Source of the DNA: a virus
Reading direction: 5' to 3' (one strand)
Length of the DNA stretch: 30,666 bases
IMG/VR virus record: IMGVR_UViG_3300042884_000444
Coordinates: 1-30,666 of that record
Shown in pieces: positions 1,390-28,169 of the stretch (positions within the stretch are counted from its first letter, which is position 1; the number at the start of each line of letters is the position of its first letter). A model generated the notes under the pieces. That model did no database searches, had not been told where the DNA came from, and was given only the letters and a program-made list of their open reading frames with translations. A program made the translations under genes and the position numbers.

Positions 1390-4300
1390 TTATCGGATTC
1401 CCACTGATTTTTTCGATTTTTCGTTCGCGATATCTTCGATGCGGTCCAGCTGCCTCTTGGTCGCCGTAGCTGGATCGAGTTGCGAGATGCGGGTCTTAAG
1501 CTCGACCGCTCGCACCTCTTGCATCTTGGTCAGCTCTTCTGGTGTGGCCTGGCGCTGCACGCGCCCGAACTGAAAGAACTTGTTGCTCTGAGGGGTGGCC
1601 GGCGTCCATCCAGTCTTGTCTAGCACCCGGTAAGCGCGATCAGGGTCTTCGCCGCCCACGATTGCGGTGCCGCCGGTCAGGATAGACATGATGCGCTCCT
1701 GGGCGCGCGGTGTACCCACTGGGTCTCCCAGGAAGTTTCGGTCAACCTTGCCGCTCCACGGTGTTGGCGCCAGAAGGTTAATGAACGTCTGGTTCTTGGG
1801 ATTGAACTGCGCTCCGGACATAGCGGTTGCCTCGCGCAGAAGAGGCTGGAACGGAATCAGGGGGCTCACGGTAGCAGCGGCGATCTTACCCATGTCGGGT
1901 GCTCCGCGATACATTCCGGAGCCGATCAGACCGGAAGCAGTGCGGCCTTGAGTCACAGCAGAGAGGGCTCCAAAAGCCAGCGACTCTCCGATTTCCTTTC
2001 CGGTCAATTCGCGGGGCTCGAACTTAAGGCCCTTCTTCTTAGCAGCGGCCTCGGCCTTCTGGTTGAGCCGGTTGCGGCGCATTACAATGTAAGATGCTTC
2101 TCCCAAGGCGTACAGCACGGGCCGGGCGATCTGGATTGGTCCAGTGTTAAGCGACACTCGGAGTATTTTTCCATTCCCAAGGTCAAGCTCCATGGTGTTC
2201 GGCTTGTGGCCCTCGCGCTCCCAGAGGTCAGCCTCTTCCTTGTCATCAGGCCACCTTGTGAAGACTCGCAATGCTCCGGACAAAACTAGCGCACTAAGCG
2301 CCCCTGCGAGCCCAAGTCCAGTAGCAGCCTCGATCTTACGTTGAACCTTGTCGGCCTCAGTATTGTACCACGCAGACCCCTCGAAGGCTTTTGGCACAAA
2401 CCCACCGCCGGCAAACGTCAGGGACCGATTGATGCCGATTGCGATCGCGTTTGAGAACCGACCGACAGGATTAGGAATACCAACTTTAGCCATCAGATCG
2501 CTGGCGTTCTTCATACCCTTACCGATCAAGCCACCAAAACCTGAGGTCTCCTCGATGTTCCAACCGATGGTTGACCGGAGGTCCTGTGTGATCTCCTTGA
2601 GCGCGCCTGCATCTAATCCAGCGGCGGCGATCCGTTGGTACTGCCGGGAACGCACGACGTTCCATGCGGCGGCGCGGCGCTCCTTCGGTGAGATATTAGG
2701 GTCGTCTGCGATAACAGCCTGAGCTAACGCGTACTCAGCTATCGCGTCTCCAATGATGGTCTTGGCGGTCTTGCGAGCCAACTCAGGCGCCATCCCTTGA
2801 AGACGCAGCTGGGACTCTGTCCACGCGCCGATCTCTTGCTGCTCGGCCAGGACCCCTTGAAACGCGTCGAGGGATGAAGCGAACCGGAAAGCCAGCTGTG
2901 TGAGTCCGATAAGGCGAGCCACAGTAGCACGTGCGTAGTCTCCGTTCTTGTAATACTCGGTTGCCTGCGCGTTAACGCGGTCTAGCGCTCGGATGCCGCT
3001 CTGGATACCCATGATGGTATCCTTCTCAGCTCGACCTTTGGCAGCCTCTAGTGCTGACGTCAGCGCCATGTTGAGCGCCTTGAAGCGCGCTTTGTAGGCG
3101 TCTTCGAGCGCGTTACTGGTATCCTTCCACAGACGAGTTGTTCGGTTTGGATCACGGCTGGTCTTGAATCTCTCCCATGCCGCCCCTACTGCACGTGTCG
3201 GCGTGTAGTAGAACATCTGCGTAGCAACGTCCATCAGCTGCTTGGAAATGAAGCTCGGCTTGAACAGCAGGTTAGCTGAGGTGACCTCGTTGATCGCCCT
3301 GGCCAGGTTCTGCTTGTTGCCACGGATTGGCATAGTCATCCGCGCCCAGCGCATCTGGATCTCACGCATGATGTCTTGACGTGGGCCCGCGTTCTTAGCA
3401 GCAACATCTTCGTCGGTCTGGCCTGACTTAATCTCCTCCTCACTAGCCGTGCTGAGTTCCTGCTCCAGGCGCGCAAGGTCCCGAAGGCGGGAAACCTCTT
3501 CGTCGGTCGGCACCTTCCAGCCTGATTTCTTGGCGATGCTTTGCAGTAGCGCCGCTGAGTTCATGCCTCCTGCATTCACGAACTCTTCGATCTTCTGCCA
3601 CAGGGGGCGACCCGGGCCAACTTCCTCACGCTGTTTCGGGGTGAGATTCTTCACCGCCAAGTCGAGTGCCTGGATGCGAGCCCGCTCAAACTTCACCTGG
3701 AATGCCTTGGCTAGCGCGAGGCCCGTCTTGTCGGCCAGCGCCTGGTCGATTGCGAGTTCAGCCAGTAGAGCCTCTGAGAACGCCTGGGCCAGTTTTGCCT
3801 GGCCAGCCTGCGGGGTGTTCAGGACCCGCTTCACCAGGTCACTCATCTTGGGAACCAACCGCTGCAACGCGGGGTTCTTAGCGACACTCTCAGCGATGCG
3901 CTGGTCCAGCAGGCCGGCACGGATACCGCCTGCTAAACGATCGACAGCCTTAGCCCGGTCGGCCGCCAGCTGCGCGTCGGTCTTCGGCTGAGCTGGATCG
4001 AAGCTAACGTCCTTGGCGCCCACGATCTGGGATACCGCTGCGTTCTCAGCTTCCATCATTCGCTCAGTCAGGTAAGTCCAGACCGCACCCTGCATCCACT
4101 CATCGGTCAGCTTCTCAGCTGCCGTGATCTGGTTGAGCTTGCCGGTGAGGAACGCGAGCTTCTCGGCGCGAGTCCTGGTCGCCATGCCTGAAAGCTCGTC
4201 GGCCTTCAGGTAGGTCTTAGCGACGCGCTTTAGGAGTTTACGGGTGGGCTCAGATTGGTAGCGCGGGTCGTTTGCAATCCCAGCGTTAATCAACTTTCGG

Positions 4301-7300
4301 AGTCGCTCTCCAGCTGTTGTCGGTTCCGGCTTTGGTGTTAAATCAAAGAACCTACCCGTAATTTCTTTTTCAGTCTGCTGCAACCGCTCGGTGAGGTAGG
4401 TCCATACCGCCCCTTGCATCCATTCGTCCGTTAGGTTTTCAGCGCCAACAATCGCGTTGAACTTAGCGGTAAGGGCCGGAATTTTTTCATCCTGAGGGCT
4501 GGTGGCGATATTTTTGAATTCATCGCTGGTGATGTACTTGCGTGCAACACGCTTGAGGAGTTCGACAGTTTTCTCACCTTTGTAACGCGGGTCTTCGATG
4601 ATTCCGGCGTTGATCAGCCGCTGGAGACGCTCACTTGCACCAATCGGAGCAGTCTTGGCCTTCACGTCCAGGAAGTTATTCAGCACGCGCTGGCGGGCCA
4701 GCTGGATCTGAGAACCCACATTGGCTGTAACCATCTGCATCACGCGGGCCTTAGCCTCGGGGGACGCGCCGGCCAGGTCCATCACTCCTTCGATGGCGGC
4801 CAGCTGCTCTCCGATCACGCGGCTCATCTCGGCATTGGGAGACTGCACCAGGCGAACGAGGTTGATCTTGGCAGGCGCCGGAGGGGTGACCTTCTTGGTT
4901 CCGAACTGCGTCCCCTTGAACCGGCCACGGATTACGTCCTGGGCGAGTTTCAGGGTGGTCGGCGAGTAGTTCAGGAACCCGTCGCGGATCGTGCGCCAGT
5001 GGGCGTACTTCGGGAGGTCGAGACCCTCCTCGATCGCCTCTGGATCGGGCTCTTCTCCGGCGTCTTTAGCTTCCTGATACTGAGCACTAAGCTCCTCGTT
5101 GCCGGCTGCGCTAGCCATCATAACCGCCCATCCAGCGTTGAACTCGGCCTGCTTGACTGCATCCTCGGTGGCTTTCTGGACCTTGGCCTGGGTCGCAGGC
5201 TTAGTCATCAGCGCGAGGCGCTCGTCGGGAGTGAGCTTTCGATTCGGAGGCTGGGGAGGCTCGGTAACCCCGAGGGCTAAAGCGTTCTCGATAATCTGCT
5301 CAATAGCTTCATTCTCAATCTCGCGTTGTTCCTTCGCCTTCTGGGTTGTCGGCTTCTTGGTCGTCAGACGCGCCTGGACAGTGCGATACACACGGCCTCC
5401 GGTATCGGCTAACGCCAAGATTCCAAACCGATTCAGCATCTCCTGGAGGTCAGGCTTCTCGCCAACGATCTTCTGGATCTCCGCTTCAGTGAACTGACCA
5501 CGGAACTCGGTCATAATCTTATCCATCACGCCTTTGATGCTCTCACCATTAAAGCTGTCGTAGATGGCCGATGTCAGGAATCCGCGCACGTTGCGAGCAA
5601 CGGCCACGAAGTCCTTCACCGATGCCTTCAGGCTCGCCAGGTTGCGGCCGAACTCAGACGCCTCAGACTGACCGATCAGGTAGAGTTCATCTCGGGTATC
5701 AGGGCTGAATGCCTCAGAGACTCCGAAGTCGTTGCGTAGCGACTGAATCAGTTCCGCTATGGTATCGCTGCGGCCTTGCTTCTTAGCCTCTGTGATCTTT
5801 GTCTTAGCGATCTCGATCAGCTTTCTTCCAGCATCCTCCTGGTTAACCCCATCGACAGGCGCGAACAGGGTGTCTCCCACCTGGCGGAATTTAATCCCCG
5901 CCTCGTTGAACGCATCAACCGCCAACTGGATACCAGCGTTTACAACCTCAGGAGTCCTAGACCGTCGGCCGGCGACAGTGTCCTCGTATGCGCCACGCTT
6001 GGTGGTTACAGGCTTGCCGGGCGTACTGTAGATCATGCCGAAGTCGCTGCTATTCGCACGCTCCGGCAAGGTGGCTACATCAGCGATAACCTCTGGTGTG
6101 GGCTCGACCGTAGATCCTTGAGCGCGGTCCCAAGCGTACTGCAACGCCGGACTGAGCTTCATTTGCAGGCTGGTCGCCCATCGTGAGGCGCTCTGGATGC
6201 CGGAGAGGATTGCTTTGGACGCCAGATTGGTAAGGGTTTCAAGAACCCGGCGCGCAGAATCCTCGGGCGTCGGGCCTTCAGTGATGCCAGCCTTGGGAGT
6301 GATAGACTCGACGAACTGGGCGATAGCGTCGGAGACTTCGGCGACGGCGTCGCTGAGGTCTATCTGCGTCTGCGCCTTGTCCTGGGCAGCCTTAGCTTCA
6401 GCAGCAGCACGTGCGGCGGCCTGGGCCTTTTGCTTACGAGCTTCGAGGTCTACGCCCTTCTCTCCAACCAGGGCAAAGTCTTCGACCTGTGTGCTGGAGA
6501 TTAAGTCTCCCTGGTTCTGTCCAGCTGCGAGACGTGGCTTACGCTCGGTGGGCGCAGCCGGCCCTTCGGTAGGAAATTCAAACGCATCTCCACCTCCACG
6601 ATCAGGAGGTTCATCGACAAACAGCGTGTCGTATTCGGTCAGCTGTTGAACTCCGAATTTGTCGCCATCACGAATCGTGTACTCTCCATCTGGAGTGACA
6701 GCTGTAACCTCAAACGACTCGCCCTGGACAGAAAACTTGTCTCCGATCGCAAGGCTTCCGACAGAGATTTGAACGGGTCCATTTGGTTCTCCAGCATTCT
6801 GCCTCCCCTCGGTTTGAGAATCTACGAACGCATCATCCTGCGCCTGTAAGAACGCGTCGAGGCCCATCGCCTCTTCGGCGCCGGCAGCGGCGGCTTTAGC
6901 TTCTTCCTTTGCGGCAGCAACATCTCCTTTGCGGCCGCGTGCTGCCTTCTTAACTTCATCCCAGAACTCAGACACACTCATGTCTCCGTACTTGCCAGGG
7001 TTTTGCATGGCGAGCCCCTGGAGCAATATGTCTGGTAGATTCCGGCTCGTTGTTCTACGTCGCGCTCCTGCAAAGATTTTATTGAAGTACGGGTCCAATA
7101 CAGGCGCGTCGTCGTAGAGGTCATTAATCCTCTCCAGGCGCCCTTCAGCCCTGGCTTGTGACTTAGACATGACGCCACCTGCTTCGATAATGTCATCAAG
7201 GATGTCTCCTTTGTACGCCCACGCGCGGGCTTTGTAGCGCTTCTTAGGAGCGGCAGGTGTAGGCGCGACTGGAGGCGTGGGGACAACCGGAGGCGTAGGT

Positions 7301-10300
7301 GCAACCGGAGGTGTCGGTTCCTTCTTAGTCAGGTCCTTCTTGGCCGCCTCAGCAGCGTTAGCCTCTGAGAACGACTCATCCTCGAAATTGAAGTTCTTGA
7401 TGTTGGTGGCAGTAGCTCCTACTTCCCCTTGAACCAGCGCGCCCATGTCCCTCATGCGGCCGCCAACTCGGGTCGCCAGTTCGCGCTCAAACGGAATGTT
7501 GTCCGCGAAGAGCCACATCATCTGGGCTTTACCTCTGAGTCCGTAGCGCGCAGACCGCAGCGACACCTGCTCCACCTGAGATGCGGTCCACGGCAAGTTG
7601 ACGTTGATCTGGGTTGTCTGGTGCGTTCCAGTCTTGTCGTGCAACGATAGCCCTGTGCCGCCCTTGGCCATCGTGGCGACCAGGACCATAGGCTTGTCGC
7701 CGCGCCAGAGTTCGAGATTCTTCTGGGCCCGCGCATCTGGCACCGAACCCGTGAAGATCGCGACATCGTTGGCGCCAATCTCGTTTTTGATCACGTCTTC
7801 AGCGGACGGTATCGAGATCACGGTCGTGCCAATTCGCTCCATCGTCGCTTCCAGCACGTTAATTATGCCGTCTGACAGCAACCCTTCGTAATCCGAACGC
7901 TTCGGCTTTTCGCCTCCCGTCCTATCTGCTATGGCTTTGGCTCGCTTGAATTGCTCCTGGAGCCTCAGCTGCTCTTGGATGTCGATGCTTCTCTCTGCCT
8001 TGGTCTCAACGAATATGATCGGCCATCTTCCGGCACTGAGGGCCCGGCGTGCTTCGCTGATTGCGTTCTTGATCTTAGACGCTTCCAGCAGGCGCTTCTT
8101 GTAGTTGATGATCCACATCTTTTCAGTGCCATCGAGGGAGCTCTTTTGAGCCTCGGCTTCAGCCGCAAACGCATTGTAGGTGTTGGTCCATTCTTCATCC
8201 CCTTTGATGGGCACCAGGCGCGAATCAACTTGGCTTGCTGGCAGCCGGGTCTTTCGGGCCGTAAAGATACCCTCCTTGCGGAAGAAATTTCTCGCCGCAA
8301 TTTGATCCTGCTCGTTGGTTTTAGTTGGGAACCAAATGGTTCGGACGATGTTTCCTCCGCTGTCCCTACTCGGTGTCGCACCGTACGCAAGAGCGAACTG
8401 TTTGTAATCACCATTGAACGAATCAAAGATTCCAGTGTTCAGTAGGTAGGCTGTCTGAGTCGGGTTCTCGAACGGCGTCGCGGTTGAGAAGATCGGGAAC
8501 TTGGTCTTAAGAATCCACTCCTGAGCCTTCTTGGCCTGCTCTGATCCGCTTCCAGCCAGGTTCTTGATCGCGTGCGCTTCGTCGAAGATTATCACGTCTG
8601 AGTCTTCCGCTGTGAGATCCTTCATCTCCGAGTAGGTGATAAACTTCACGGGGCCGATATTGTAAGCCTTGAGATCCTGTTTGATCTGCTTAATCAACCC
8701 TTGATTGAGGGTCACGTAGATGATCTTGCGGGCGAAATAATTATCCTTTATCTCGCGAATAGCAGCCCCCAACACGAAGGTCTTTCCGGTTCCAGGTGCG
8801 CTGGAAAGCATGAAGAACGGCCGGGTGTCTCGTTCCGCAAACGCTCGCACTATCATGGCCGCGTCTTCAATCTGCTCATCTCCAACTTCTCTCGGGATGC
8901 CAAACTCTTCGCCTTGGCGGATAAGCTCCTGAGTTTCTACGCCAAGATACTTGTCAACGCCTCCGTCCAATCCGCTTCGGTCGGGCCGGTTGTCCGCATT
9001 CTCTCGGAGTTTTCGGAGTTCAACATCACGGGAATAAGCCGGGCTACTACTTCTTTGTCCGCCAGCAGCTCCCGAATCAGCTCTTGATCGCTCGATAAAC
9101 TGCCCAAGACCGGCGGCAGAGATGGTGTAGAACTTGTCATTCCCGATTTGGGAATATCGTCCGCCGGCATTGGTGAGTTCTTCTTTGCGGTCGTAAGTCT
9201 TACCCCGGAGGGTGATGCTACCATCTGGGTTCTGCCGGGCGTTAATCTTGAGGCCATTGAGGAAGGATTGGTTTTCATCGGTAAGGATTGCTTCGGCTTT
9301 CGCTCTCTCTTCTGTGACCGCGTTCTGGTATTCCGGCAGTGAGTTAATGTAGTCGCCAACTTGGCGCGAGCGCGACCCAGGGGCGGCGCTCCTGGTGCTT
9401 CGGACCAGCCACATGGCGTAGTCCGGCTGTTGCGCGAAGAGGTCTTTGACTAAGAGGGCGGCGTACTTCCCGTGGTCAACGGTTTGGTTGGCGATTGCGG
9501 GGGTAGCAGCTGGGGCGGGGCGGGGTGCGGGGGCGGCGGTGGGTGGTTTTGCAGGAGCCGGCGTCACCGGCCCTGGCTTATTGAAATCCAACGTCACGCC
9601 TTTTCCGGCGTTCCGGAACACGCGAACTGGAGCGCCGCTGGAAATCTTCTGAAGAGCATTGTCGAGTGACTTTTCGGACTGCGCTTCAATCGTGACGTCC
9701 TCATCAACCTTGATGGTGTACTTAGGTATCGATCCGCGCTCATTAGGTGTACCAACGATCGACTTAGCGAAGGCAACGATGTCGCCAGTGTCACGATCAA
9801 TCATCCCATCCACGGTGCGGTTCTGGAACGGGAACGTGCGTGAGGTGGGTACAGCAGCGGGAGTGGGAGTCGTAGTCGGCGCAGGAACCAGCGCGGCCCT
9901 CAAGGCTTTGATGGTCCCAACGGGATCTACCTTTAGACCACTATTAACACCACTCATCTGACCGCTGTCCATCCGCCTTCCGATTTCAGATTGAGCAAAC
10001 CTTTCTGGGGTTAGGCGACCTTTTTCTGCCTGGGCTTCAAGGACCTCCAACTCGAAGTCCGCGTCTTCGTATAAAAGTGGGCTTAATCCGTAATTTGGGA
10101 CCTCCGTGATCGTGTACCGGAAATCAGGCGCCGCTTTGAACGGGGTTGGCTCCTGTGGCGCAGCTGGCGTTTCTGCCACGGCGGGGGTTTTTGCCACGGC
10201 GGGGGTCGCCGCAGCCCCAGGCTTAGTCCACCCCGTAGTCTCATCGAAATCAAAGCCCGCCCGCTCCAGCTCGCTAACACGGCCGGCGAGTTCCTTGAAG

Positions 10301-11697
10301 CGATCCAGTTGCTCCTCCTCAAGCATATCGGACGCAGACGCTCCATCAAGGAAGTCAACGATCCCGTTGTACTCGTTGGTCTCCTCAACCGTCAGCGGCT
10401 GGACTTCGGTGGGAGTGGCGGAGACCGATGTCTCGGAGGCAGCGACCGTCTCAGGAGCAACAGCGGTAACTTCAGCTGGGGTCTCCTCATCAGCTACGTC
10501 CGTCTCCAGCTGCATCTCTGGAATCACGGCGGCCTCTTCGAGAGGCACAACGGCCGCACCTGGAGGCACGATCCTTATCGACCCAGAAGGCGCGCCGCCG
10601 GAGTTGATGCCAGCGAGAGTGGCGGTGGCGTTGGGTAGTGGGAGGTTGGGATCGCCGCCGATAGCAGCGACGCCGGCTGCTTGGCGGTCGATGATTTCCT
10701 GAAGGCGCTGCCCTCCAGGTGCAGGCCCTTCGACAAGGCGTTGCTCCTGGATCTGGCCCATCCTACGAACTCGTCCATAACGGCCTGCTCCGCCAGTCAC
10801 TAATCCAACCAGGCCACCTACCGTTCCGCCGACTGAAGTCGAATCATAAACGCCTTCGCTTAGTTTCTGATCGGGGTTGTAAGTCTTCCTGGCGACTGCG
10901 TTGCCAAGCCATTGCTCTGACCCCTCCTGACCAGCTTCTCCGACCAACGGTTTTAAGATATCTTCTAGGAGGTTTTTTCCTGCCTTGCCCGCTATCGCCT
11001 GATTGATTGCCGGCACCGCTCCGATAGCTCGCTCCGTAAGCCCACCAATCGGCGCAGTGTAAAAAGCCGCTTGGTACTGTTTGGTAGGCTTTTCAGCTTG
11101 TAGGCGATTGACCTCTGTTATGTTCCCTTCAGCCAATGCCTGCGCGATCTTGGCGTCGTAAAACTGGCCAGCGCGTTGAGCCGCATCTTCTGCGGTGCTG
11201 AATGCGTAAGCCGCTTGCCCGACACCAGGCACTATCGACACAGGAAGTGACCCTAGTCCGCTGGCGACCTGGGTGAGAAAATCATCTTCTCGAAGGGGAT
11301 TGACTGGGAATGCTTCTCTTGCGCCCTCTTGAAGCGCCTTGCCCATCTGGAATGTCGGGCTGGCCTCAAGCATCGCTGCACGAGCCATGGTTTCCTCCGG
11401 CGACACCTCCTTGACGCGCTTTTCCCAGGCTGCCTGCCTACGTTCGTAGGCCGCCATCGCAGCTGGGCTTTCAGCCTGTGCTGCTGAGATTAATGGCGCT
11501 GGCTCTTCGAGGCCTACACGCGTCAGGCCCATCATACCTCCACCGACCATGCGGCCACCTTCGCGCATCAGCGCGGATCCTGCGGCGGGTAGCGCGCCTT
11601 GATCTAACGTACCAACGAACTCCAGAAGCTCGTTTTCACCCATGTCATCGGGCACTTCGATCAACCCGATATTCTCAACGTCAACGAGCTTAGGCAT
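1390..11697 (-). CDS. Giant polyvalent virion protein with strawberry-notch-like SF2 helicase
   Basis: A 3435-residue protein. Residues 1-330 are Ala/Gly-rich with hydrophobic or glycine-zipper stretches (about 140-163 and 290-307), as in ejected internal virion proteins. Pro/Ala linkers follow. About 733-766 (DHGKY..DLF..DYAMWL) resembles the ExoX C-terminal module, and about 825-857 (LRGKTYDRKEELTNAGGRY) resembles DUF5710. The helicase spans roughly 915-1430: Walker A SAPGTGKT (~968), DEAH (~1038), STATP (~1071), AKGGTGLSLHD (~1347), and SLRSARYGLRG (~1383) followed by a FERELATRVGGRMRDMGAL segment typical of strawberry-notch proteins. A TPPVAP linker, a small beta-rich domain (GDKFSVQGESFEVT), an Ala-rich coiled coil, a duplicated 108-residue unit (2358-2573) and a long alpha-helical C-terminus with a hydrophobic segment (~3123-3143) follow. 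It is the last gene of the virion operon. By analogy with injected polyvalent proteins it probably enters the cell with the DNA. No RNA polymerase, methylase or lysozyme motif was seen. The start has no Shine-Dalgarno sequence and follows the preceding stop by 6 bp. Confidence 0.8.
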   Translation of the reverse strand: MPKLVDVENIGLIEVPDDMGENELLEFVGTLDQGALPAAGSALMREGGRMVGGGMMGLTRVGLEEPAPLISAAQAESPAAMAAYERRQAAWEKRVKEVSPEETMARAAMLEASPTFQMGKALQEGAREAFPVNPLREDDFLTQVASGLGSLPVSIVPGVGQAAYAFSTAEDAAQRAGQFYDAKIAQALAEGNITEVNRLQAEKPTKQYQAAFYTAPIGGLTERAIGAVPAINQAIAGKAGKNLLEDILKPLVGEAGQEGSEQWLGNAVARKTYNPDQKLSEGVYDSTSVGGTVGGLVGLVTGGAGRYGRVRRMGQIQEQRLVEGPAPGGQRLQEIIDRQAAGVAAIGGDPNLPLPNATATLAGINSGGAPSGSIRIVPPGAAVVPLEEAAVIPEMQLETDVADEETPAEVTAVAPETVAASETSVSATPTEVQPLTVEETNEYNGIVDFLDGASASDMLEEEQLDRFKELAGRVSELERAGFDFDETTGWTKPGAAATPAVAKTPAVAETPAAPQEPTPFKAAPDFRYTITEVPNYGLSPLLYEDADFELEVLEAQAEKGRLTPERFAQSEIGRRMDSGQMSGVNSGLKVDPVGTIKALRAALVPAPTTTPTPAAVPTSRTFPFQNRTVDGMIDRDTGDIVAFAKSIVGTPNERGSIPKYTIKVDEDVTIEAQSEKSLDNALQKISSGAPVRVFRNAGKGVTLDFNKPGPVTPAPAKPPTAAPAPRPAPAATPAIANQTVDHGKYAALLVKDLFAQQPDYAMWLVRSTRSAAPGSRSRQVGDYINSLPEYQNAVTEERAKAEAILTDENQSFLNGLKINARQNPDGSITLRGKTYDRKEELTNAGGRYSQIGNDKFYTISAAGLGQFIERSRADSGAAGGQRSSSPAYSRDVELRKLRENADNRPDRSGLDGGVDKYLGVETQELIRQGEEFGIPREVGDEQIEDAAMIVRAFAERDTRPFFMLSSAPGTGKTFVLGAAIREIKDNYFARKIIYVTLNQGLIKQIKQDLKAYNIGPVKFITYSEMKDLTAEDSDVIIFDEAHAIKNLAGSGSEQAKKAQEWILKTKFPIFSTATPFENPTQTAYLLNTGIFDSFNGDYKQFALAYGATPSRDSGGNIVRTIWFPTKTNEQDQIAARNFFRKEGIFTARKTRLPASQVDSRLVPIKGDEEWTNTYNAFAAEAEAQKSSLDGTEKMWIINYKKRLLEASKIKNAISEARRALSAGRWPIIFVETKAERSIDIQEQLRLQEQFKRAKAIADRTGGEKPKRSDYEGLLSDGIINVLEATMERIGTTVISIPSAEDVIKNEIGANDVAIFTGSVPDARAQKNLELWRGDKPMVLVATMAKGGTGLSLHDKTGTHQTTQINVNLPWTASQVEQVSLRSARYGLRGKAQMMWLFADNIPFERELATRVGGRMRDMGALVQGEVGATATNIKNFNFEDESFSEANAAEAAKKDLTKKEPTPPVAPTPPVVPTPPVAPTPAAPKKRYKARAWAYKGDILDDIIEAGGVMSKSQARAEGRLERINDLYDDAPVLDPYFNKIFAGARRRTTSRNLPDILLQGLAMQNPGKYGDMSVSEFWDEVKKAARGRKGDVAAAKEEAKAAAAGAEEAMGLDAFLQAQDDAFVDSQTEGRQNAGEPNGPVQISVGSLAIGDKFSVQGESFEVTAVTPDGEYTIRDGDKFGVQQLTEYDTLFVDEPPDRGGGDAFEFPTEGPAAPTERKPRLAAGQNQGDLISSTQVEDFALVGEKGVDLEARKQKAQAAARAAAEAKAAQDKAQTQIDLSDAVAEVSDAIAQFVESITPKAGITEGPTPEDSARRVLETLTNLASKAILSGIQSASRWATSLQMKLSPALQYAWDRAQGSTVEPTPEVIADVATLPERANSSDFGMIYSTPGKPVTTKRGAYEDTVAGRRSRTPEVVNAGIQLAVDAFNEAGIKFRQVGDTLFAPVDGVNQEDAGRKLIEIAKTKITEAKKQGRSDTIAELIQSLRNDFGVSEAFSPDTRDELYLIGQSEASEFGRNLASLKASVKDFVAVARNVRGFLTSAIYDSFNGESIKGVMDKIMTEFRGQFTEAEIQKIVGEKPDLQEMLNRFGILALADTGGRVYRTVQARLTTKKPTTQKAKEQREIENEAIEQIIENALALGVTEPPQPPNRKLTPDERLALMTKPATQAKVQKATEDAVKQAEFNAGWAVMMASAAGNEELSAQYQEAKDAGEEPDPEAIEEGLDLPKYAHWRTIRDGFLNYSPTTLKLAQDVIRGRFKGTQFGTKKVTPPAPAKINLVRLVQSPNAEMSRVIGEQLAAIEGVMDLAGASPEAKARVMQMVTANVGSQIQLARQRVLNNFLDVKAKTAPIGASERLQRLINAGIIEDPRYKGEKTVELLKRVARKYITSDEFKNIATSPQDEKIPALTAKFNAIVGAENLTDEWMQGAVWTYLTERLQQTEKEITGRFFDLTPKPEPTTAGERLRKLINAGIANDPRYQSEPTRKLLKRVAKTYLKADELSGMATRTRAEKLAFLTGKLNQITAAEKLTDEWMQGAVWTYLTERMMEAENAAVSQIVGAKDVSFDPAQPKTDAQLAADRAKAVDRLAGGIRAGLLDQRIAESVAKNPALQRLVPKMSDLVKRVLNTPQAGQAKLAQAFSEALLAELAIDQALADKTGLALAKAFQVKFERARIQALDLAVKNLTPKQREEVGPGRPLWQKIEEFVNAGGMNSAALLQSIAKKSGWKVPTDEEVSRLRDLARLEQELSTASEEEIKSGQTDEDVAAKNAGPRQDIMREIQMRWARMTMPIRGNKQNLARAINEVTSANLLFKPSFISKQLMDVATQMFYYTPTRAVGAAWERFKTSRDPNRTTRLWKDTSNALEDAYKARFKALNMALTSALEAAKGRAEKDTIMGIQSGIRALDRVNAQATEYYKNGDYARATVARLIGLTQLAFRFASSLDAFQGVLAEQQEIGAWTESQLRLQGMAPELARKTAKTIIGDAIAEYALAQAVIADDPNISPKERRAAAWNVVRSRQYQRIAAAGLDAGALKEITQDLRSTIGWNIEETSGFGGLIGKGMKNASDLMAKVGIPNPVGRFSNAIAIGINRSLTFAGGGFVPKAFEGSAWYNTEADKVQRKIEAATGLGLAGALSALVLSGALRVFTRWPDDKEEADLWEREGHKPNTMELDLGNGKILRVSLNTGPIQIARPVLYALGEASYIVMRRNRLNQKAEAAAKKKGLKFEPRELTGKEIGESLAFGALSAVTQGRTASGLIGSGMYRGAPDMGKIAAATVSPLIPFQPLLREATAMSGAQFNPKNQTFINLLAPTPWSGKVDRNFLGDPVGTPRAQERIMSILTGGTAIVGGEDPDRAYRVLDKTGWTPATPQSNKFFQFGRVQRQATPEELTKMQEVRAVELKTRISQLDPATATKRQLDRIEDIANEKSKKSVGIR
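4060..4626 (-). repeat. Tandem duplication inside the giant protein, 324-bp period
   Basis: Residues 2358-2438 (nt 4626-4384) and 2466-2546 (nt 4302-4060) align without gaps over 81 positions. I count 50 identities, including LINAGI, DPRY, LLKRVA and TDEWMQGAVWTYLTER. The period is exactly 108 residues, and the similarity reaches back into the preceding ER-L motif. The DNA of the two copies differs at many third positions, so the duplication is old and held by selection on protein. A weak third copy may follow near residues 2590-2630 (DRLAGGIRAGLL). Confidence 0.9.
7262..7315 (-). repeat. Three 18-bp units encoding a TPPVAP linker
   Basis: Three imperfect 18-bp units at 7262-7279, 7280-7297 and 7298-7315 encode TPPVAP, TPPVVP and TPPVAP on the minus strand. 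They lie just after the helicase domain of the giant protein and probably form a stiff extended linker between it and the next domain. Unit number may vary between relatives through slippage. Confidence 0.7.
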
Positions 11698-27629: not shown

Positions 27630-27875
27630 TCACCAAGCCTTACACGACCAATACTTCGCAGATAACTTCGTGCCCGGTGTGTCACAACCATGCCGGGCAT
27701 GAAAACTTTTACGGTTCTTCGGGATGTGCTTTTTGATGCTCATGTTCGGATCACCAAAACGCACGAGCTTCACTTGCCCGCCCTCCTTAGCCAAGACAGC
27801 GGACTTCTTCGAGGCGCCTGGCGTAGACTTCGGCTTGTTGTACCCGGCAAATTTCTGGCCTCGGTAGGTAATCAT
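27630..27875 (-). CDS. Small basic protein with RARH-type motif, function unknown
   Basis: An 81-residue protein from ATG 27875. An upstream GTG at 27899 would lie in the previous gene. It is basic in its C-terminal half and ends with KSFHARHGCD, then a Pro/Gly/Lys stretch and KYWSCKAW. I recall similar C-termini (ARH..CD...YW.C..W) in small proteins of environmental phages and large viruses, but no function is known to me. The two Cys and two His could bind metal. Its start overlaps the lipoprotein gene stop (ATGA), and its stop abuts the scaffold stop with no space. The DNA includes a GC-rich hairpin at 27671-27699. Confidence 0.6.
   Translation of the reverse strand: MITYRGQKFAGYNKPKSTPGASKKSAVLAKEGGQVKLVRFGDPNMSIKKHIPKNRKSFHARHGCDTPGTKLSAKYWSCKAW
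27671..27710. terminator. Possible terminator hairpin after the scaffold gene
   Basis: A 7-bp perfect GC-rich stem (tgcccgg at 27671-27677 with ccgggca at 27693-27699) has a 15-base loop and is followed by tgaaaactttt. It lies 41 bp beyond the scaffold stop, inside the convergent gene, and could end rightward transcription. The loop is long and the T-run is short, so it may be only coding sequence. Confidence 0.3.
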
Positions 27876-28096
27876 TTGGCTTTCGGCAGTACGTACCACC
27901 CAGCTGGAAGGGTGACCCGACTAGGACCAGAGAGCTTACCGTCCTTGTCAAACGCGTAGACGCGGGCGCGGACGGGCTCTGCTAGCATCACGGGATCACC
28001 GCTAGGAACGAGGATTACCTTTGTCTGCTGGCAACCCAGGCAGATTGGCAACACGAGCAGCCAGATCAGATTTGAGGGGTTGAGGTGCTTGGCCAT
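27872..28096 (-). CDS. Small lipoprotein, candidate outer spanin
   Basis: A 74-residue protein from ATG 28096. An ATG at 28105 would add three residues. Residues 10-22 (LIWLLVLPICLGC) form a hydrophobic signal segment ending in a relaxed lipobox, with Gln after the Cys, which fits outer-membrane sorting. The mature part is short and beta-rich (KVILVPSGDPVMLAEPVRAR, TLPAGWYVLPK). It sits after the membrane-protein genes of the right arm, where lysis genes are expected, so an o-spanin or accessory lysis role is possible. It overlaps the upstream 55-residue gene in a different frame over 95 bases. It stops as ATGA with the next gene. Confidence 0.65.
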   Translation of the reverse strand: MAKHLNPSNLIWLLVLPICLGCQQTKVILVPSGDPVMLAEPVRARVYAFDKDGKLSGPSRVTLPAGWYVLPKAK

Positions 28097-28169
28097 GTTG
28101 CACATCGGTGGGTGGTGTTTCTCGGAACCAGTCGAGCAGAGCCTTGAGGATCTGGTAGATCCAGTTCAC
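28002..28169 (-). CDS. 55-residue protein overlapping the lipoprotein gene in another frame
   Basis: A GTG at 28169 forms a GTGA overlap with the holin-like gene stop. The frame runs 55 residues to TAG at 28002. It opens VNWIYQILKALLDWFRE, an amphipathic helix, then PP.DVQHGQAPQPLKSDLAA. About 95 bases overlap the lipoprotein gene in a different frame, the arrangement seen in overlapping spanin pairs such as Rz/Rz1. It lacks a clear transmembrane helix long enough for an inner spanin, so that role is doubtful. The coupled start and an otherwise unfilled gap of about 70 bases argue that it is real. The family is unknown. Confidence 0.55.
   Translation of the reverse strand: MNWIYQILKALLDWFRETPPTDVQHGQAPQPLKSDLAARVANLPGLPADKGNPRS

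Follow-up and report, generated by a model that had tools for sequence, protein, structure and literature searches.

An overlapping, co-conserved gene pair behind exchangeable holins in uncultivated phages, a possible spanin-like module

Organization of the locus

The window, that is, the whole stretch of DNA analysed, comes from a tailed phage that has not been cultivated, of which it represents a fragment (IMG/VR record, 30,666 bases). It carries a short operon on the minus strand in which the genes follow each other in the order P4-P3-P1-P2-P5. P4 (28360-28530) encodes a small membrane protein of 56 aa and is probably the second gene of a holin module, the other being P3 (28166-28363), whose holin-like product of 65 aa has two hydrophobic segments. 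P1 (28169-28002) encodes 55 aa from a GTG start, P2 (28105-27872) a lipoprotein-like product of 77 aa, and P5 (27630-27875) a phrog_7595-like protein of 81 aa. Overlaps of start and stop codons by 4 nt join P4 to P3, P3 to P1 (the GTG of P1 overlaps the TGA of P3, forming GTGA) and P2 to P5 (ATGA). P2 is read in the +1 frame of P1, and the two genes share positions 28002-28105 of the minus strand, 104 nt including the P1 stop codon.

The GTG-started frame of 55 residues, coupled to a holin-like stop and overlapping a lipoprotein frame, is present on the minus strand as the first-pass annotation of this DNA had described it. The overlap of "about 95" bases given there corresponds to 95 nt counted from the second ATG of P2 (28096), and to 104 nt counted from the first. 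The first ATG is present in most relatives, the second is missing in many, and one subgroup is limited to the second or a later ATG; because the choice of ATG varies in this way, the start of P2 is not certain.

Some relatives, L135 and L142 among them, have no P5 behind the pair, and therefore it is not an obligate part of the arrangement. P5 also matches weakly a part of phrog_220 ("minor head protein and DNA pilot"), and is perhaps a free-standing copy of a virion-protein domain. Just upstream of the holin module two adjacent minus-strand genes with a 4-nt overlap (28790-28530 and 29038-28787) both match phrog_6228 and look like tandem paralogues. Elsewhere in the window a single minus-strand frame of 3435 aa (1390-11697) adjoins probable virion genes, and comparable places in related contigs hold large frames of 3150, 2237, 2033 and 1897 aa.

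Conservation and selection in both frames

Scans of IMG/VR (tblastn, E <= 1e-3) detected relatives of P2 at 350 loci and relatives of P1 at 305, and 153 relatives, representing 90 distinct protein pairs, were read out. P1 and P2 co-occur with both frames open in all 153, and the pair is never split. The P2 frame is offset from the P1 start by 64 nt in every one of them, the overlap is 104 or 110 nt long in nearly all, and almost every relative shows the 4-nt coupling of the P1 start to the stop of the gene before it. Stops breaking the 55-residue frame in close relatives, which had been named beforehand as the refuting observation, were looked for in these sequences and none occurs.

The codon-level check proposed at the same time was also carried out. 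Nucleotide diversity by codon position shows the expected third-position excess for each gene outside the overlap, whereas inside the overlap the third-position diversity of P2 is suppressed (0.164 vs 0.42). Substitutions on a tree of 85 distinct sequences were compared with the neutral expectation; when they are counted by parsimony and recombination, which phages do undergo, is ignored, changes that are nonsynonymous in P1 and synonymous in P2 reach 0.27 of neutral in the overlap against 1.07 downstream, where P1 is noncoding, changes that are synonymous in P1 and nonsynonymous in P2 reach 0.48 against 0.83 upstream, where P2 is noncoding, and overlap changes silent in both genes stand at 1.09. 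No P1-silent change in the overlap produced a stop in the P2 frame (15.8 expected), and no P2-silent change produced one in the P1 frame (18.4 expected). In a remote clade of 42 sequences the values are 0.69 for P1 and 0.40 for P2, so that in this clade the constraint is clear for P2 and weaker for P1. We consider the difference between regions too marked for recombination to account for it.

P1 and P2 are both real, co-conserved genes, and the pair is more than a product of chance: the frames are open in every relative examined and under purifying selection where they overlap. It could be argued that the 55-aa frame is open by accident and the lipoprotein the sole gene, given that short frames arise by chance in GC-rich overlaps and that P1 matches no database family. 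Against this, P1 is under selection both within the overlap and beyond it, stops are missing, and P1 is retained in every relative examined; the probability of such a reading is negligible, and a chance overlap is ruled out by the selection tests.

Distribution and remote versions of the pair

The pair is kept in hundreds of uncultivated freshwater-type phages. In L175 and L179-L182 P1 is 47-62% and P2 about 60% identical, and the arrangement is the same. A scan with the holin of L142 yielded 75 loci, 74 of which were examined: P1/P2 lies downstream in 45, a diverged P1' in 20 and a third version, P1''/P2'', in one, while two loci are cut short, one carries Rz/Rz1 and five carry other genes. 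P2' accompanies P1' wherever the contig is long enough, and nearly all of the 80 loci found in a scan with P2'' have a P1'' of 66 aa overlapping P2''. The homology of P2' and P2'' to P2 is not confined to the signal peptide: a profile of the P2 clade built without signal peptides detects both, with E values of 1e-13 to 1e-16. P1, P1' and P1'' are weakly similar (best hmmsearch E about 0.1; hhalign probability 72-78%); the best non-family hits of the P1 search among 35,507 frames are exactly the P1' and P1'' genes, and an N-terminal helix and an LKxDLxxR-like segment are common to all three. The +1 frame overlap is likewise found in all three versions. The first-pass annotation had left room for two unrelated lysis genes, which is less likely now that three remote versions of the pair are seen to stay together with the same overlap.

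Some observations concern individual contigs. The 42,273-base contig G013 (L172/L174) carries two non-identical P3-P1-P2 cassettes near its two ends (around 1646-2140 and 41703-42191), reflecting duplication, recombination or chimeric assembly. A 59-aa ORF (MFGxLSSLxKATxGVV...) is located between the holin and P1 in L181 (3776-3955; P1-type) and in L238-L241 (P1'-type), and may move as a module. L175 (RFPZ01000057.1) is a 7.2-kb contig in a Chloroflexota MAG, Candidatus Aquidulcis frankliniae; it looks wholly phage, with genes related to those of the window, and is possibly a host link or a case of mis-binning. A second match of this kind was sought in 301 genomes of Chloroflexota and none was found.

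Homologues of P1, P2 and P3 were searched for in isolated phages, as was a homologue of the pair with a tested function, and none was found. Three candidates were rejected: a match to Rz of Escherichia coli phage JEP4 (E = 8) is due to chance, a match in Pseudomonas phage Lauda is part of a large unrelated gene, and a Parcubacteria hit (L176) consists of 21 residues inside an unrelated frame. In Chlorobiaceae phage CV-1-33 an unannotated lipoprotein-like frame (L262:1956-2192) overlaps gene 31 in +1 within the endolysin gene cluster; its score against the P2 profile is not significant (E = 0.13), and the two frames may be a lysis pair that has gone unrecognised in this isolated phage.

Properties of P2 and P1

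The n-region, the h-region, Cys25 and the Gln in position +2 of P2 are conserved among relatives. According to the general +2 rule Gln in this position directs a lipoprotein to the outer membrane, and from its sequence P2 is expected to be sorted there. The lipobox-like CLGC, which follows the signal helix and ends in Cys25, misses the strict consensus [LVI][ASTVI][GAS]C; non-consensus lipoboxes exist among o-spanins, and AWAC has been verified (PMC6139136). The remainder of the protein contains a small beta domain (residues 39-71), predicted with pLDDT in the 80s. The sole significant match in the fold library is A0A6J7WFE6 (BFVD), an uncharacterised protein of an uncultured Caudovirales phage that shares 62% identity with P2. 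The PDB, searched by sequence and by fold, gave nothing significant. A unimolecular spanin was considered and rejected, the only hydrophobic segment of P2 being the signal peptide and its C-terminus a beta domain with no C-terminal transmembrane domain (TMD).

P1 has neither a transmembrane segment (maximum KD19 0.09; WW-octanol +1.1 kcal/mol) nor Cys, and no export signal was found in it. Its N-terminal stretch (helix 3-17) is strongly amphipathic (hydrophobic moment 0.78; interfacial transfer -4.7 kcal/mol), and the first-pass annotation was right in assigning it an amphipathic helix only. The LKxDLxxR-like motif is conserved in a second helix (30-41); both helices come from an AlphaFold model of low confidence (mean pLDDT 65.7). 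The helix of P1' is more hydrophobic and borderline for a TMD (about 1.4; about -5), and P1'' is negative. Searches of PHROGs, Pfam and NCBIfam with P1 and P2 returned no significant match, including none to a known spanin family.

These features recall disruptins, short amphipathic helical peptides that replace spanins, with phiKT as the archetype (PMC12819732). P1 is likewise short and without a TMD, and its N-terminal helix is strongly amphipathic; it could disrupt the outer membrane alone after holin triggering, P2 would then be an independent or auxiliary lipoprotein, and the overlap would reflect compaction. The net charge, however, is near neutral, at +1 to +2 (+1 for the P1 of the window) and -1 in P1'', conserved C-terminal sequence beyond the amphipathic helix makes up half of P1, and the pair persists together in three remote clades. 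We regard an explanation by P1 alone as unlikely.

Holin context

The gene immediately 5' of the pair is of the P3 type in 149 of the 153 relatives. In other relatives the upstream gene is a holin of family PF23987 (Phage_holin_10, Pam3 gp28 type; 62.7 and 68.0 bits, cut-off 27), which directly precedes the pair in dozens of them, and upstream of P1''/P2'' it can be a phrog_2359 holin (1.4e-13) together with a further membrane protein. Holin modules (P3/P4, PF23987, phrog_2359) are exchanged while the pair keeps its place. The earlier designation of the region as a probable lysis locus gains from this, since holins recognised by Pfam and PHROGs stand directly in front of the pair in relatives.

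Coupling to the stop codon of the holin gene raises the question of whether P1 is a holin regulator, an antiholin-like peripheral protein of the inner membrane, with P2 served by another membrane partner, for which P4 and an XhlA-like protein, both membrane proteins of the same cassette, would be at hand. Such a role is improbable: P1 stays with P2 through complete holin exchange, which is unexpected for the partner of a single holin, and the P4 and XhlA-like genes change while the P2 family stays.

In L258 the genes behind a PF23987 holin encode an Rz-like i-spanin (phrog_1152, 2.4e-7) and, overlapping it in +1, a lipoprotein (phrog_456, 1e-3), which puts a canonical Rz/Rz1-like pair in the same slot in a single contig; a scan for L258-like holins gave no usable second locus of this kind. 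In addition, eight related contigs of 38-47 kb each contain a single strong lipoprotein candidate, namely P2; the few other matches to the lipoprotein pattern are frames that look non-coding, and no other linked protein fitting an i-spanin was found. The likeness to overlapped spanins that the first-pass annotation had pointed out is strengthened by both observations, the second of which covers eight contigs and the first only one.

Phage-encoded lipoproteins of the outer membrane with exclusion functions are known, Llp of T5 among them. P2, with or without P1, might similarly be a non-lytic late lipoprotein of the outer membrane, serving for example superinfection exclusion or receptor masking and standing behind a holin by chance, and its lytic activity is something that we only infer. 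However, its position behind interchangeable holins is stable, Rz/Rz1 occupies the same slot in L258, and if P2 is set aside the contigs offer no clear candidate for an o-spanin, so that we regard a non-lytic role as quite improbable.

Six of the eight contigs encode an SLT-like protein of 110-140 aa, at a distance of many kilobases from the lysis genes. It is 41% identical to the "lysozyme" of Cellulophaga phage Calle_1 and, with a score below the Pfam cut-off, is a plausible endolysin candidate. No recognisable copy was found in the window fragment.

Interpretation

The evidence leans, if only somewhat, towards P1/P2 being an overlapped two-component, spanin-like module for disruption of the outer membrane, carried in their lysis cassettes by a large group of phages known only from uncultivated material. 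Two lines of evidence are brought together in this reading. First, both frames are under purifying selection, the pair is unsplit in 153 relatives, and its remote versions keep the +1 overlap; second, the pair sits behind exchangeable holins, and Rz/Rz1 is found in the same slot in L258. On the one hand, P2, judged by its sequence features, would fit the role of an o-spanin. On the other hand, P1 fails the defining feature of an i-spanin, the N-terminal TMD. Owing to this and to the lack of any match to spanin families the pair is not filed as a two-component spanin, even if it probably works like a spanin pair.

The mechanism that we infer extends to the lipidation and localization of P2, to its interaction with P1 and to the lytic role of the pair. 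P2 would be exported, lipidated and set in the outer membrane, its beta domain facing the periplasm, while P1 would be made by translational coupling to the holin and would bind the membrane via its amphipathic N-terminal helix. After opening of the inner membrane by the holin and removal of the wall by the endolysin, P1 could meet P2 in the envelope, and the pair would then disrupt the outer membrane. A more specific version is offered tentatively, and we give it less than even credence: a two-component system in which an inner partner released by the holin, carrying an amphipathic helix and not integral in the membrane, engages a lipoprotein of the outer membrane whose gene overlaps its own in another frame.

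Several points count against the reading as an outer-membrane module. Because P1 has neither a TMD nor an export signal, its route to the periplasm is unexplained; furthermore, CLGC is off consensus, the Rz/Rz1 locus is a single contig, and the endolysin candidate lies outside the cassette. The reading fails if the host has no outer membrane, and the link of one relative, L175, to a Chloroflexota MAG is possibly a product of mis-binning.

Comparison with known systems

Within the lipoprotein family of P2, A0A6J7WFE6 carries no functional information. Cassettes with Phage_holin_10 (Pam3 gp28, PF23987) share the position of the holin directly before the pair, whereas in the window this place is taken by P3/P4, a holin-like module of another, unclassified type. 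The phiKT disruptin resembles P1 in being a short amphipathic-helix protein of a phage without a recognisable i-spanin; in contrast to it, and as far as a comparison of descriptions goes, P1 is not strongly cationic, and its gene is always accompanied and overlapped by that of a lipoprotein.

The closest parallel in gene arrangement is with overlapped two-component spanins, in which the genes overlap in +1, the lipoprotein comes second and the pair lies behind a holin (PMC6139136). As in the P2 LysB/LysC class and in Rz/Rz1-like pairs, a small gene behind the holin is overlapped in +1 by a lipoprotein gene that extends past it, within a lysis cassette that bears a holin and, in L258, has an Rz/Rz1-like pair in the identical slot. 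Unlike those spanins, P1 has merely 55 aa and no N-terminal TMD, and neither protein matches a spanin family in sequence.

Searches of the openly licensed literature brought up no title or abstract on such a pair. The criteria of the spanin survey exclude, by its own statement, other anchors and topologies, and 31 genomes in it have a lipoprotein but no linked i-spanin candidate (PMC6139136); a survey of lytic proteins from 2025 removed I-spanin candidates without transmembrane regions (PMC12596118). If the more specific version given above is right, P1/P2 would be an additional way of breaching the outer membrane, common among uncultivated aquatic phages but overlooked by any survey that requires a TMD in the i-spanin. 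With a construct of 300 nt the pair makes alternative outer-membrane disruption directly testable. Compared with the known spanins, a widespread, co-conserved overlapping pair that occupies the spanin slot without a TMD is what filters demanding that feature miss.
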